A DNA stretch of 64,000 nucleotides, taken from an uncultured Nitrospira sp. Its GTDB lineage: Bacteria; Nitrospirota; Nitrospiria; Nitrospirales; Nitrospiraceae. The DNA lies in assembly GCA_902500995.1 (NCBI GenBank), contig CABVSR010000019.1, positions 1 through 64,000 of the forward strand. The letters run 5' to 3'. The notes beneath the pieces are model-generated. The model saw nothing but the letters and a program-made list of their open reading frames with translations. It was not told the origin of the DNA and did no database searches. Shown here in pieces: positions 31,495-39,337 of the stretch. A program made the translations under genes and the position numbers. Every line of letters starts with the position of its first letter. Position 1 is the first letter of the stretch.

Positions 31495-33138
31495 TCAGCG
31501 ACCGGCAAGAAGCAATTTGTACTCGATGCTATCGGCCAACGCCTGCCAACTGGCTTCCATGATATTTTCCGAGACCCCCACCGTCCCCCATTTGTCCTTG
31601 TGATCGCCCGATTCAATGAGGACGCGCACCTTTGATTCCGTACCCTTGTCGGCGGACAGTACCCGCACCTTGTAGTCGAGGAGTTTGACCTCCCGCAGTT
31701 GCGGATAAAACTTCTCCAATGCTTTCCTCAAGGCATGGTCCAGCGCATTCACCGGTCCGGCTCCCACAGCAGCCGTATGTTCGACGACGTCTCCCACCTT
31801 CACCATGACTGTCGCTTCCGACAGCAAGAGCCCGTGTTCCTGTTTCTTTTCGACGATCACCCGGAAGCCCAGCAACTGAAAAGACGGGCGATGACTCCCC
31901 ATCGCTTTGCGCATCAACAATTCAAAGGACCCTTCGGCGCCTTCAAATTGATAGCCCTGACTTTCGCGCTCCTTCAGCGTCTCGACGAGCTCCTGGAGCT
32001 TCGCATGATTTTTGGTCAACGAAATGCCATAGGCTTCGACCTTCTCCATCAAGCCGCTGCGTCCCGCATAATCGGACACCAGAATGCGGCGGCGGTTTCC
32101 GACGACGGCAGGATCGATGTGTTCGTAGGTCGCGGCATTCTTGAGGACGGCATGGATATGCACGCCGCCCTTGTGCGCAAAGGCCGCATCGCCGACATAG
32201 GGCTGGCGCTTGTTCGGCATCAGATTGGCAATTTCCGTCACGAATCCCGAGACGTCCTTCAGCCGCGTCAGTTTATTGCCGAGGGCCGGGCGCTGCATTT
32301 TCAGCTGGAGATTGGGGATGATGGAGCAGAGATTCGCATTGCCGCACCGCTCGCCGATGCCGTTGATCGTACCCTGCACCTGTAGAATCCCGGACTCCAC
32401 GGCGACGAGTGAATTCGCCACCGCCATTTCGCTGTCGTTATGCGCGTGAATGCCCAAGGGGACGGGGCACTCCTGCTTGACCACCCGGCAAATTTCCCGA
32501 ATCTCCCACGGCATCGTACCGCCGTTCGTATCGCACAGAATAACGCGCTCGGCACCGCCCGCAATGGCTCGACGAATGGTCTGCAGCGCATAATCGGGAT
32601 TGGCCTTATACCCGTCGAAAAAATGTTCCGCGTCATAAAACACGCGCCGATCCTTGGAGCGCAGATAATGAATGGAGTCTTCGATGAGCTCCAAATTCTT
32701 CGCGAGCGCAATGCCTAGGGCATCGGTCACCTGGAACGACCAACTCTTCCCGAACAGCGTGATAGTCGGGGTGCCCGAATCCAGCAACGCCTGAAGATTT
32801 TTGTCTTTCCGTACCGGATTGCTGGCTTTCCGCGTCGAGCCGAACGCCACGACGGTGGCATTCCGAAACGGAATGGTTTTGATTTGCCTGAAGAACTCAA
32901 TGTCCTTCGGGTTTGCCCCCGGCCATCCTCCCTCGATGAAGTGCACACCGAGTTCATCGAGCTGCTGCGCGACGCGAAGCTTATCCTCTACGGAGAAGCT
33001 CACGTCCTCCGCCTGAGCCCCGTCACGCAACGTCGTGTCGTAGATTTCCAAGGCGGAGGTCTGCGCGGCGGTGAGCGCCGGCAGGTGAGTCGATTCCTGA
33101 TCGGAGGATCGGCGCGATGCTGTCGTTCGACGTTTCAT
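31495..33138 (-). CDS. cimA: (R)-citramalate synthase
   Basis: A 547-residue DRE-TIM metallolyase-type acyltransferase. EIYDTTLRDGAQAEDVSFS opens the catalytic barrel, followed by EGGWPGANPKD, GIHAHNDSEMAVANSL and NGIGERCGNANL; a LeuA-type allosteric domain occupies the last about 130 residues. The EGGWPGANPKD segment and the length match CimA rather than isopropylmalate or homocitrate synthase. It condenses pyruvate and acetyl-CoA, giving a threonine-independent route to isoleucine. ATG 33138 lacks a clear ribosome binding site. It lies 77 bases after lysC on the same strand. Confidence 0.93.
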   Translation of the reverse strand: MKRRTTASRRSSDQESTHLPALTAAQTSALEIYDTTLRDGAQAEDVSFSVEDKLRVAQQLDELGVHFIEGGWPGANPKDIEFFRQIKTIPFRNATVVAFGSTRKASNPVRKDKNLQALLDSGTPTITLFGKSWSFQVTDALGIALAKNLELIEDSIHYLRSKDRRVFYDAEHFFDGYKANPDYALQTIRRAIAGGAERVILCDTNGGTMPWEIREICRVVKQECPVPLGIHAHNDSEMAVANSLVAVESGILQVQGTINGIGERCGNANLCSIIPNLQLKMQRPALGNKLTRLKDVSGFVTEIANLMPNKRQPYVGDAAFAHKGGVHIHAVLKNAATYEHIDPAVVGNRRRILVSDYAGRSGLMEKVEAYGISLTKNHAKLQELVETLKERESQGYQFEGAEGSFELLMRKAMGSHRPSFQLLGFRVIVEKKQEHGLLLSEATVMVKVGDVVEHTAAVGAGPVNALDHALRKALEKFYPQLREVKLLDYKVRVLSADKGTESKVRVLIESGDHKDKWGTVGVSENIMEASWQALADSIEYKLLLAGR

Positions 33139-33214
33139 AAATATGCGCGTTAATCGGCGTTGGGTGACGTGTCGAGGAGCCCGCTTGGCCGGCGGACCTG
33201 TTCCACCATGGCCG

Positions 33215-34450
33215 TCAGCCGAGGGCCGGCGTCGTGACGCGATCCAGACCGAACGCCGTATGGAGCGTCCGCATGGCCAGTTCCAGATATTTCTCCTCGA
33301 TGACACAAGAGATTTTGATTTCCGATGTGCTGATCATCATGATATTGACGCCCTCGCGCGACAGCACCTCGAACATTTTCGCCGCCACCCCGGAATGAGA
33401 CCGCATGCCCACTCCGATCAGCGACACTTTGGCAATGGATTCGGTCACTGCCACCGATCGCGCACCGATTTCCTGAGACAATCGCTGTACGAGATCAACG
33501 GCCTGGCGCAGATCCGGCTTCGGCACCGTAAACGAAATGTCGGTCATGGACGCCTGGCTGACGTTTTGAATAATCATATCCACGACGATATTGGCATTGG
33601 CCACCGCACTGAATACCCGCGCGGCGATTCCGGGGCGATCGGGCACACCCACAATCGTGATCTTGGCCTGATTACGGTCCCCCGTCACACCCGATACCAT
33701 GACCCCTTCCATATCGGCATCTTCACGTGTCACGAGTGTTCCCTTTCCTTCCTTGAAGCTTGAATTGACCTCCACCGGAACGGAATATTTGGCGGCAAAT
33801 TCAACCGAGCGGCTCTGTAACACCTTGGCGCCGAGGCTCGCCATTTCCAGCATCTCCTCATACGAAATCTTCTCGAGGCGCCGCGCGGCCGGTACGATAT
33901 TGGGATCGGCCGTATAGACCCCGTCGACATCCGTATAAATAATGCAGCGATCGGCTTTCAATGCCGCCGCCAACGCCACTGCGGTCAAATCAGATCCTCC
34001 GCGACCCAACGTCGTGACATCCGAACTGGCGTTAATCCCCTGAAACCCGGCGACAACCGGAACAACGCCTCCGGCCAGAGCCTCTTTGATGCGTTCGGCC
34101 GTGACACGGGAAATTCTCGCCTTGGTATGTGCGCTGTCGGTATGAATGCCGACCTGCCGGCCCGTGAAGGAACGGGCGTTGACGCCTCGCCCCCGGAGCT
34201 CCATGGCCAATAGGGCAATGGTCACCCGTTCTCCCGTGGACAGCAGCATGTCCAGCTCGCGCTCATCCGGGGAGCTGGTCGCCTCATGCGCCAACTTGAG
34301 CAGTCGATCCGTTTCGCCGCTCATGGCCGACAGCACCACGACCACCTGATGCCCGTCTTTCTGCGCGCGGGCAACCCGTTCGGCAACGCGATGAATCCGC
34401 TCAATATTCCCGACCGAGGTACCGCCGTATTTTTGAACGATCAGTGCCAC
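33215..34450 (-). CDS. lysC: Aspartate kinase
   Basis: A 411-residue enzyme starting [11 protein letters not shown], with [35 protein letters not shown] and the EVNSSFKEG segment. Two C-terminal ACT domains (about 265-411) are the usual feedback site. It phosphorylates aspartate, the first step toward lysine, threonine and methionine. The start is GTG at 34450 with GGAG ten bases upstream. Only five bases separate it from the upstream iPGM-like gene. Confidence 0.96.
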
Positions 34451-34455
34451 AACCT

Positions 34456-35706
34456 TTACGCTCCGCGAGGGAATAACCGCAGCATCAGCTTGGTGGCATC
34501 ACGAGGCGCGGATCCGGCGATGGTCTTGTCCTGCTCGTGAAAGCGGGTCTCCGAGCCGCCCGGCGATTCAGCACCACTGTCGCACAAGGCATACAAAATC
34601 GGCGGGACCTCTGACCCATGCCCTTTCGCCAAACCGGGATCGCAGACCACCAGCAGCCGGTACGCCGGATACTTTGCCAAGGCCGCCACGATCGGCCCGA
34701 TCACCTGGGCATCGAACCGTTCGATGGCCCGCACCTTGTCATGGACATCGGTCGCGTGCAGCACATCGTCCGACAAACCGGCATGGAGATAGACGAAATC
34801 TTTTTTCGCCAACTCTTGAGCGACCGCATTCACACAGCCGGCGAATGTGTCCGATTCATCGCCATTGTCGGGAGGCAGCTCGGCCGCCTCCAATCCGGCG
34901 CACAAGCCGACTCCACGGTGCACATCACTGGCCGACACGACGACACCGGTGGTCTGATAGCGCTCGGGCACCGGGGGCCATAGCGGAGCGCGCCCCTGTC
35001 CCCACAACCAGAGACAATTGGCCGGCTTCAGCCCTTCTTGTTCGCGCTCTTCGTTGACCGGATGGTCGCGAAGAATAAAGAACGACGCGTCCATGATTTT
35101 CCGCAACACGTCAGCGCCATCCCCGGCCGGCAATGCCTCGGCGATCGATCGTCCGACTAGCTGCTGTGGATCGACACAGGTCGCGCGCGATTTTCCTCCG
35201 ACCCATACCATTAAGTGCCGATGACCGGAACCAGGATAAAATTGAATACTCTCCGACCCCAGCTGTTCGTTGACGGCTTCCACTAACTCCCGGGCTTGTT
35301 CCGTTTCAATGAGCCCGGCGGTCGCATCTTCCATGACCACATGCGGCCCCAGTTTCTTGATGTCGAGGGCGCGGTCCTTCCCGGCGGAGGCGGATTCGCC
35401 TCGTACCGTGACCATTGTGCAACGGAACACGACATCCTGCTCACCCACCGTCACCCCGAGGCCTGCGGCTTCCAGAGGACCAGGCCCGGGATAATACTTC
35501 TTAGGATCGTACCCCAGGACGGCAACCGCGGTGACATCGCTGCCCGTGGTGCCCGCGTCGGAAGGCAGGCTTAACAGTCCCACTTCTGCGCGCTGAGCGA
35601 TCTGATCAAGATACGGCGTCTTGGCCGCCTGGAGAGGCGTGCACCCGCCGAGTTCAGCACAGGCAAGGTCAGCCATCCCGTCGGCATGCAGGATCAAATA
35701 TTTCAT
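34456..35706 (-). CDS. Archaeal-type iPGM (ApgM) superfamily protein, proposed homoserine kinase
   Basis: A 416-residue alkaline-phosphatase-superfamily protein of the cofactor-independent phosphoglycerate mutase (ApgM) type: [10 protein letters not shown] at the N-terminus, the [16 protein letters not shown] segment with the predicted nucleophile Ser, and [21 protein letters not shown]. In true iPGMs the C-terminal metal motif reads Asp-His; here it is CDPG with Pro357 after Asp356, and His363 follows. A family of such proteins in threonine operons has been proposed to be homoserine kinases. Its position between thrC and lysC, with no thrB in sight, fits that proposal. A mutase role is the alternative. 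AGGA lies eight bases upstream. Confidence 0.8.
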
Positions 35707-35724: not shown

Positions 35725-36783
35725 TCAGACATGAAGGAGGCGGGCCACATCATCGCGGGTGGCTTTCACCGTTTGAGGCTGACGTGAAATGCCGATCGCC
35801 GTATCGGCATCTTTCAAACCGTGCCCGGTTAACGTGCAGACAACCGTGGCACCTTCTTTTAATTTCCCGGCTTGGCTCAATTTAATGACACCGGCCACCG
35901 AGGTGGCAGAGGCGGGTTCGCAAAAGACCCCTTCTTCCCTCGCGACCAAGGCGTAGGCATGGAGAATTTCTTCATCTGTGACCATATCGATGGCACCCGA
36001 CGATTCTCCCACCGCCGTCAGGGCCGCCTGCCAGCTGGCCGGGTTGCCGATCCGTATCGCCGTCGCCACAGTCTGCGGCTCTGCCACCACATGCCCCAAG
36101 ACAATGGGCGCGGCCCCGGCAGCCTGGAAACCCATCATGCGCGGCAACCGCGTCGTTTGGTTGGCCGCCCGATACTCGCGATAGCCATTCCAATAGGCGG
36201 TGATATTACCCGCATTCCCCACAGGAAGTACATGGAGAGTCGGCGCGTCACCAAGATCGTCGCAAATCTCCATGGCCGCCGTCTTTTGACCTTGGATACG
36301 GAAGGGGTTGAGCGAATTCACTAACTCCACCGGGTAGGTCGCCGACAACTCTTTCACAATCGTTAAGGCCTGATCGAAGTTTCCTTCCACCTGAATCACG
36401 GTGGCCTGATGCATCATGGCCTGCGACAACTTGCCGAGGGCGATTTTCCCGGCCGGAATGAGGACATACACAGCAATTCCAGCCCGCGCCCCATAGGCCG
36501 CGGCCGATGCGGACGTATTGCCGGTGGAGGCGCAAATGACGGCTTTGGCGCCTCCTTCGACGGCTTTGGAAATGGCCATCGTCATGCCTCGGTCTTTGAA
36601 CGACCCTGTCGGGTTCATGCCCTCGTACTTGAGGTAGAGATCCACGCCGGGGGCAATTTTTTTGGCGAGCCGCGCCGCGCGAATCAATGGCGTATTGCCT
36701 TCTCCCAGCGTGATGACCGGCGTCTGAGCCGTCACGGGCAAGAACTTCCGGTATTCCTCGATAATGCCGCGCCAGCGAGTCAT
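35725..36783 (-). CDS. thrC: Threonine synthase
   Basis: A 352-residue fold-type II PLP enzyme. [13 protein letters not shown] and [15 protein letters not shown] (PLP Lys in SFKDRG) are followed by [19 protein letters not shown] and the phosphate-binding LPVGNAGN. It converts O-phosphohomoserine to threonine. The length matches the short, Bacillus-type threonine synthase without an N-terminal extension. It follows hom by 47 bases and precedes the iPGM-like gene by 18. Confidence 0.96.
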
Positions 36784-36830: not shown

Positions 36831-38144
36831 TCATTCGTCCCGCCCTTCAACCCTAATCAGTGTCGTCGGTTCCGAGATGTACGGCATCGGGTTGATTTCG
36901 CGAAGGGCGTTTTGAATATCGCGCTCTTTGGCCATATGCGTCATGATGACGACGGGAACGGTCTGACCTTCTTTGCGTCCCTGCTGCAACACGGAGGAAA
37001 TGCTGATGCCGTAACGACCCAACACGCCGGCAATCTGAGACAGCACGCCAGGCCGATCCAGAACCATGAAGCGAATGTAATACAAGGAGGTGATTTCCTC
37101 CATCGGCCGTATACGCCGCGGCAGCCTTTGATCCGGCTGATAGGAGGCAGGCGGCACACGTCCCGTGGCATTCTTGAGCATGTCGCGCGCAATAGACATG
37201 ACATCGCTCACCACGGCACTCCCTGTCGGCATCGACCCCGCGCCACGACCGTACAGCACCACATCTTCGACGGCATCACCTACTAACTGAATGGCATTAT
37301 ACACACCATCCACTTTCGCAATTTGTGATGCGGACGGCACCATGGTGGGGTGCACCCGGGCTTCAATTTCTCCGTCGGAACACTTCGCAATCGCCAGCAG
37401 CTTGATGGTAAATCCGAACTCCTTCGCATAGGCGATATCCAGCGGAGTGAGACCGGTGATGCCCTCGGTGTAAATCTCTTTGAAGTTGACCGGAGTGCCA
37501 TAGGCCAGACTCACCATGATGGTGAGCTTATGGGCCGAATCGATACCGGCGACATCAAAGGTGGGATCGGCCTCGGCATATCCGGCGCGCTTGGCCTCCT
37601 CCAAGACGACCTCGAACCGTTGTCCTTCGCTGGTCATCCGGCTCAGAATGTAATTGGAGGTGCCATTGATGATCCCATAGATCGATTGGATGTTGTTGGC
37701 AGCCAAGCCTTCCGTGAGGGCGCGAATGACGGGAATTCCTCCACCCACACTCGCCTCAAATCCGAGGTCGATCCCTTGGCGGGACGCGGCGGCGAAAATT
37801 TCTTCTCCATGCACAGCCAGAAGCGCCTTATTCGCGGTCACCACGTGCTTGCCTCGCTGCACGGCCTCTAAGATAACGCGTTTCGCAGCGTCATATCCGC
37901 CCATCAGCTCGATCACGATATCCACACGCGGATCCGCCAAGACCTGCTGGATATCCGTCGTCAACAGGCCCGGCGGAATCGCGATGCCTCGATCACGCGT
38001 GATATCCAAGTCTGCAATCCGCAGCAGTTTGATCGGCACACCGACCCGGCGACGGATCAGGTCGGCATTCTCAATCAGCACCCGCGCCACCCCGGTGCCG
38101 ACCGTTCCGAACCCGATCAGTCCGACCCCGATTTCAGTTTTCAT
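36831..38144 (-). CDS. hom: Homoserine dehydrogenase with C-terminal ACT domain
   Basis: A 437-residue enzyme: Rossmann motif [16 protein letters not shown], then the GVIELMGG-like region [15 protein letters not shown], the catalytic-domain sequence [14 protein letters not shown], and an ACT domain (about 355-430) for feedback by threonine. It reduces aspartate semialdehyde to homoserine. The start overlaps the alaC stop (ATGA). Aspartate semialdehyde dehydrogenase, the step between lysC and hom, is not in the window. Confidence 0.96.
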
Positions 38145-39337
38145 GATTCCTGATCATCCAGATTCAACACTTTCCGGATCCCGCGGAGCGCCTGCCGCGT
38201 GCGGTGTTCATTTTCCACCAACGCAAACCGCACGAATTCATCCCCGCCTTCCCCGAATCCGATGCCCGGCGAGACCGCCACTTTGGCTTCGCGGAGCAAC
38301 AATTTTGAAAACTCCAGTGACCCCATGTGCCGGAACGGATCCGGGATGCGGGCCCAGACGAACATGGTCGCGCGGGGCAACGCCACGGGCCAACCGATGC
38401 GATTGAGCCCGTTCACCAAGACATTCCGCCGATTTTGATAGCGCTGCACAACGTCTTTGACGCAGTCTTGCGGTCCATTCAGCGCGACGGTACTGGCTAT
38501 TTGAATGGGTTGAAATATCCCGTAGTCGAGATAGCTCTTCAGCTTCGCGAGGGCGCCCACCACCTCACGGTTGCCGACACAAAATCCGACTCGCCATCCG
38601 GGCATGTTATAGGCCTTGGAGAGCGTGTAAAACTCGACGCCCACATCCTTCGCCTCAGGCACTTGGAGAAAGCTCGGCGCCTTATACCCGTCGAACGCAA
38701 TATCCGCATACGCCAGATCGTGAATGACAATCACGTCGTGTTCCTTGGCAAACGCGACGATTTTTTTGAAAAATTCGAGATCGACCACTGCGGTGGTGGG
38801 GTTATGGGGGAAATTGATGACCAGAATACGAGGCCGCGGGAGGGTCTGGCGATAGACCCGCAGCAGATCGTCGAAGAAATCGCTGTCCTGGCGCAGCTCA
38901 ATGCCGCGCACTTCGCCGCCCGCGATAATAAAACTGTACATGTGAATGGGGTACGTCGGCGTGGGAGTGAGCACCACATCGCCCGGCCCGATCGTGGCCA
39001 ACGCCAGATGCGCGAGGCCTTCTTTCGAGCCGATGGTGACGATCGCTTCGGTCTCAGGATCCAGCTCGACATCATAGTTGCGCTTGTACCAGCCCGTAAT
39101 CGCATGGCGCAATTTGGTGATGCCCCGCGACGCTGAATAGCGATGGTTCTTCGCTTTCTTGGACGCCTCGATCAGTTTGTCGACAATGTGGGGCGGCGTG
39201 GGCTGATCCGGATTACCCATCCCGAAGTCGATGATATCCTCGCCCCGTTGGCGCGCTTCCAGCTTCAGGCTTTGTACCTGGGCAAATACGTATGGAGGCA
39301 GTCGTTTGATGCGGTAAAAACCGTCGCTGATCGACAT
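38141..39337 (-). CDS. alaC: Class I aminotransferase, AlaC-like (alanine/glutamate-pyruvate transaminase)
   Basis: A 398-residue PLP enzyme of fold type [21 protein letters not shown] and [20 protein letters not shown] closely follow the E. coli AlaC pattern; NFPHNPT binds PLP and [15 protein letters not shown] carries the Schiff-base Lys. Alanine synthesis from pyruvate and glutamate is the best guess; an LL-diaminopimelate or aspartate transaminase activity is the alternative, given the aspartate-family operon. It is the first gene of the six-gene run ending in cimA, behind a good promoter. Confidence 0.87.

Follow-up and report, generated by a model that had tools for sequence, protein, structure and literature searches.

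Introduction

Threonine synthase (ThrC) needs O-phosphohomoserine, and the proteins of the TIGR02535 (ThrB2) family have been proposed as homoserine kinases. A homologue, BT2402 of Bacteroides thetaiotaomicron, is needed for threonine synthesis but could not stand in for thrB in E. coli (PMC7311316). BT2402 retains both zinc sites (PMC9765024). The ThrH protein, known from P. aeruginosa, uses phosphoserine as the phosphate donor to homoserine; in vivo, it complements homoserine kinase (PMC1079889). A shikimate-kinase-like homoserine kinase is known from Desulfovibrio (PMC5764234). Nitrospira japonica grows in pure culture in inorganic medium (PMC4070959), so that Nitrospira is capable of producing threonine itself; our literature search on a Nitrospira homoserine kinase found nothing relevant.

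The window analyzed here is a stretch of 64,000 nucleotides from an uncultured Nitrospira sp., whose own genome (G000) comprises 3.97 Mb in 56 contigs and is 97.6% complete. A sequence-only reading of this DNA had placed a phosphoglycerate-mutase homologue, referred to below as X, in the role of the homoserine kinase of a threonine operon. Here we compare X with its relatives across the phylum Nitrospirota.

Results

Locus, family and fold of X

The open reading frame map and the NCBIfam matches confirmed the earlier statement that X sits between thrC and lysC, with hom in the same operon. The genes are transcribed in the order aminotransferase, hom, thrC, X, lysC, and cimA:

38141-39337, minus strand: aminotransferase of the LL-diaminopimelate/alanine aminotransferase kind, called dapL here (NCBIfam)
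36831-38144, minus strand: hom, homoserine dehydrogenase (NF004976, 547 bits vs cut-off 205)
35725-36783, minus strand: thrC, threonine synthase, upstream neighbour of X (TIGR00260, 322 vs 167 bits)
34456-35706, minus strand: gene X, degenerate ApgM/TIGR02535-type protein of 416 amino acids, ATG start (open reading frame and translation, NCBIfam and Pfam matches, solved relatives)
33215-34450, minus strand: lysC, aspartate kinase, downstream neighbour of X (NF005155, 638 vs 346 bits)
31495-33306, minus strand: cimA, citramalate synthase, last gene of the conserved order (TIGR00977, 766 vs 450 bits)

The aminotransferase that heads the operon (38141-39337) scored above the NCBIfam alanine transaminase cut-off (660 vs 647 bits) and below every listed LL-diaminopimelate aminotransferase cut-off, and its name is tentative. 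The loci compared showed that the thrC-X-lysC slot is common to the outgroup Nitrospirota, which makes X a positional orthologue of the outgroup genes.

X matched Pfam PF10143 and PF01676 and exceeded the TIGR00306 (apgM) cut-off, with 342 vs 320 bits. It fell below the cut-offs of TIGR02535, named "proposed homoserine kinase" (322.5 vs 446.3 bits), of PRK04200 (332 vs 426 bits), and of the PhpG model NF038358 (148 vs 545 bits); one member of the sister family f2 exceeded the TIGR02535 cut-off with 493 bits. The solved structures nearest to X, both by sequence and by the fold of its predicted model, were 2zkt, 3kd8, and 3idd. The predicted model matched 2zkt_B with an E-value of 1.2e-17, a probability of 1.00 and a TM score of 0.62, in agreement with the overall fold of ApgM. 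The assignment of X to the archaeal-type iPGM family was thus upheld by the TIGR00306 score together with the Pfam and structure matches. In the AlphaFold model of X the core was predicted with high confidence, and the cap (about residues 73-241) mostly had pLDDT values below 50, so that the geometry of the cap supports no claim.

Metal-site and nucleophile residues

Using the B. stearothermophilus iPGM as a guide, we followed seven residues, which we take to be Asp9, Ser56, Asp313, His317, Asp356, His357, and the final His in the next loop. This final residue, the third His of the first metal site, is presumably H462 in B. stearothermophilus iPGM numbering. The residue correspondence was backed by aligning one canonical member to archaeal 2zkt, in which the Asp-His pair is also found. 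The corresponding parts of X lie in the window as follows:

35680-35682, minus strand: Asp9, ligand of the second metal site (alignment)
35539-35541, minus strand: Ser56, position of the catalytic nucleophile (alignment)
35053-35598, minus strand: PF10143 region, residues 37-218, mostly cap (Pfam)
34756-34770, minus strand: Asp313-x3-His317, leftover ligands of the first metal site (alignment)
34636-34641, minus strand: Asp356-Pro357 codons, Asp-His of the second metal site where the site is intact (alignment)
34594-34626, minus strand: residues 361-371, a shortened loop whose counterpart in canonical homologues bears the last His of the first metal site (alignment)

The number D9 recurs for BT2402 (PMC9765024).

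The alignment verified that Asp356-Pro357 replaces an Asp-His pair: position 357 is His in 30/30 outgroup homologues, all of them Asp-His, and Pro in 26/26 members of the window's genus. A second ligand, which the sequence-only reading had not mentioned, is gone from X as well, in a loop that is shortened: the column of the final His is occupied by His in 30/30 outgroups but is gapped in 26/26 members of the genus and in most of the family. No substitute His, which would have counted against that reading, is conserved at another position; the candidate H363 (in GHG) was rejected because different genus members have Tyr, Gln, Arg, Asp, or Lys there.

The remaining residues differ in how well they are kept. 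In the window's genus, Asp313 and His317 are retained in 26/26 members, Asp9 in 25/26, and position 56 is still Ser, giving a site string of DSDHDP- in 25/26. Beyond the genus, Asp313 and His317 are gone in many other family members, position 9 is Gly, Ala, Glu, or Ser in many sister species, and position 56 is Gly, Thr, or Asn in several sister clades. Asp9, Ser56, Asp313, His317, or His357 have been lost in many combinations in the rest of the window's family, and another family of the order has Asn at 356, often with Gly or Thr at 56. Two of the seven residues are thus missing in the window's genus and up to six in its relatives. On the hom-thrC-lysC tree, each single site residue changes at least two to five times. 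All seven residues were present in 30/30 sampled outgroup X proteins, which were the best-scoring TIGR02535 loci of the phylum search, a choice that favours canonical copies, vs 0/105 X proteins within the order. All seven are also present in G170, a genome of the same class as the window. Another genome of this class (G219; L133 4876-6096), which lies outside the order and is ThrB-positive, carries an X with 4/7 site residues, and its sequence may represent a second decay of X alongside another homoserine kinase.

Homoserine-phosphorylating enzymes of the genome and the phylum

The sequence-only reading had suggested searching the whole genome for thrB and a second mutase. Profile searches, on which all absence claims rest, found no ThrB above cut-off in the genome of the window, as that reading had supposed, and the two weak matches among GHMP kinases were IspE and a heptose-7-phosphate-kinase-like protein. 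For homoserine kinases the search comprised the ThrB, ThrH, and TIGR02535 profiles. X is single-copy. A dPGM of the GpmA type is present (contig 1, 38648; TIGR01258, 274 vs 81.7 bits), which rules out X as the sole phosphoglycerate mutase, and the only other PF01676 protein of the genome is a phosphopentomutase and not a second iPGM. A second protein of the histidine phosphatase family (L098 5877-6485, on contig 1) is nearest to alpha-ribazole phosphatase and below its cut-off.

The genome also encodes ThrH, on contig 27 (46274-46861), outside the window and the operon. This protein exceeded two curated cut-offs (TIGR02137, 297 vs 223.4 bits; NF010109, 310 vs 133 bits) and aligned over nearly its full length with P. 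aeruginosa ThrH (1rku) at 275 bits. By analogy, it would phosphorylate homoserine in Nitrospira; it may here be mainly a phosphoserine phosphatase. Among other genes of the genome, the sequence-only reading had named only a thrB gene and the question of a second phosphoglycerate mutase as grounds for its rejection, and was therefore blind to ThrH.

Across 295 genomes of the phylum, TIGR02535 was found above cut-off in 141, ThrB in 40, and ThrH in 95 (94 above cut-off and one partial match below it). All 95 genomes with ThrH fall within the window's order. None of the 40 ThrB genomes does, and none of 61 order members had ThrB above cut-off; ThrH was found in 56 of the 61 order members searched. 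The phylum profile search gave no ThrH match in the order members G034, G288, and G313. At least one of the three proteins was found in 273/295 genomes and none in 22/295; the latter include G034, G288, and G313 and may reflect incomplete assembly or another homoserine kinase. Overlap among TIGR02535 X above cut-off, ThrB, and ThrH was limited to 3 of the 295 genomes: G170 and G067 combine X and ThrB, G037 alone combines X and ThrH, and no genome has both ThrB and ThrH; Fisher tests on this exclusion treat genomes as independent, and their p-values are not to be taken literally. The ThrB-positive exceptions (L132 of G170 and L220 of G067) have an X with all site residues, and G067 is listed as 6% contaminated. 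The X of G037 (L045) is one of those that have Asn356 and Gly56. This near-perfect exclusion of canonical X, ThrB, and ThrH supports a putative homoserine role of canonical TIGR02535 proteins.

Loss of X and selection on X

Among order genomes without X, those with a thrC region that we read (six from family f3 and two from f4) have lysC directly after thrC. In G060 (L053, 5364-6488), thrC and lysC are intact, and X between them is reduced to fragments interrupted by several in-frame stops; the frame of X is open in G050, of the same genus group. All of these genomes with X lost or broken carry ThrH, and the presence of X changes at least four times on the hom-thrC-lysC tree. The frame is open in all sampled members of the window's genus and in nearly all of the family.

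X had a median dN/dS of 0.080 within the genus; in the N. moscoviensis-type set the median was 0.103, and the neighbours of X had 0.024-0.063; these are approximate NG86 values from pairs with dS of 0.15-1.5, many of them near 1. X is the fastest-evolving gene of the operon, at about two to three times the rate of its neighbours. Its most constrained stretch, by windowed conservation and by regional dN, is residues 121-240, much of which lies in the PF10143 region, with dN relative to gene dS of 0.046 vs 0.163 for residues 241-300. Residues invariant in 43 species include H162, R163, H164, W168, N218, R221, W233, and W235, and positions 9, 56, 317, and 357 vary among the same 43 species. These rates indicate that X is under purifying selection, which is strongest in the cap domain. 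With catalytic residues lost and the gene under purifying selection, X has the features of a putative pseudoenzyme under selection.

Discussion

We consider it probable that ThrH displaced X as an enzyme and that X persists as a pseudoenzyme. The loss of the site, the presence of ThrH, the absence of ThrB, the losses of the gene, and purifying selection are seen in the sequences and support this reading, under which X would have lost catalysis. X would descend from the TIGR02535 enzyme that occupies the same thrC-X-lysC slot in other Nitrospirota and probably makes O-phosphohomoserine there. ThrH would have arrived in the ancestor of Nitrospira's order, where transfer of phosphate from phosphoserine to homoserine could feed ThrC. 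As proposed here, because ThrH took over, the two-metal site of X would have been released from selection and have fallen apart differently in each sub-clade, and some lineages would later have dropped the gene. In Nitrospira and its family, X would have been retained for a function that depends on the cap, not on the metals. X would now be without phosphotransfer chemistry, and may bind homoserine, O-phosphohomoserine, or threonine as a pathway ligand and stabilize or tune an operon partner. ThrH was gained once on the tree, and its timing relative to site decay is a single, unreplicated event. As a counterpoint to displacement, five of the seven residues (D9, S56, D313, H317, and D356) are nearly invariant in the window's genus, and X may possibly show weakened metal binding there. 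The order members that gave no ThrH match (G034, G288, and G313) and the two genomes that pair ThrB with an intact X (G170 and G067) also count against it.

More tentatively, X could be a clade-wide regulatory pseudoenzyme in the main Nitrospira lineages, whose cap might sense homoserine, O-phosphohomoserine, or threonine and tune the products of the flanking genes, threonine synthase or aspartate kinase.

Those five residues, kept in 25-26/26 genus members, also suggest another reading, that X retains other metal-dependent chemistry specific to the window's genus, such as a phosphatase or transfer activity with a weakened site. The confidently predicted core domain is consistent with it, as is the existence of superfamily members with changed chemistry, for example PhpG, matched by X below cut-off. 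We regard this as unlikely, since in the sister clade of N. moscoviensis, N. lenta, and their relatives many species have lost Asp9, Ser56, or His317 and keep X under similar selection, so a function shared with that clade can do without these residues.

That X is the Nitrospira homoserine kinase with a modified metal site, as proposed by the sequence-only reading, appears quite improbable. The slot between thrC and lysC, an order without ThrB, the five site residues that remain in the genus, and the almost complete exclusion of its canonical relatives, themselves proposed homoserine kinases, with ThrB and ThrH all speak for it. But ThrH is present in the genome, none of the 105 order sites is intact, each sub-clade has dismantled the site in its own way, with the nucleophile Ser and Asp9 among the residues affected, and relatives that hold hom, thrC, and lysC have lost X or carry it broken. 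The further argument that the lost His fits a change to another phosphoryl transfer is likewise not supported: the 30/30 outgroup homologues keep the metal sites, and the homologue BT2402 retains both zinc sites (PMC9765024), so ligand loss is no sign of becoming a homoserine kinase.

A slowly decaying relic without function would agree with X being the fastest-evolving gene of the operon and with its complete loss or breakage in several lineages, but is very unlikely given a dN/dS of 0.08-0.10, a frame open throughout the sampled genus and in almost the entire family, and many cap residues invariant across 43 species.

The phylum offers a natural experiment on whether TIGR02535 proteins make O-phosphohomoserine, in which canonical X, ThrB, and ThrH divide 273/295 genomes with almost no overlap. 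Together with the loss of the X active site in the ThrH-bearing clade, this division supports a homoserine role for intact X. Annotators are cautioned against naming Nitrospira copies of X mutases or kinases, and X would represent a putative pseudoenzyme in globally important nitrifiers.

Among known systems, X is closest in position to TIGR02535/ThrB2, as an orthologue in the thrC-X-lysC slot with the same domains and about 36-44% identity to outgroup members. It shares the genomic setting of that family, lying by hom and thrC in a genome without ThrB, but differs in its score and in the seven-residue site; the canonical members and BT2402 keep their metal sites, whereas X of the window's genus lacks two of the seven residues. 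The archaeal ApgM proteins (2zkt, 3kd8, and 3idd; TIGR00306) are its best solved relatives, and X exceeds the cut-off of this subfamily but lacks the Asp-His and final-His metal ligands; with GpmA in the genome, there is no need for a second mutase. PhpG (NF038358) is a phosphoglycerate-mutase homologue of the same superfamily with another transfer chemistry, and its name indicates that the fold has changed function elsewhere. ThrH (TIGR02137) is an unrelated enzyme of the HAD fold, and is proposed here as the successor to the former job of X.
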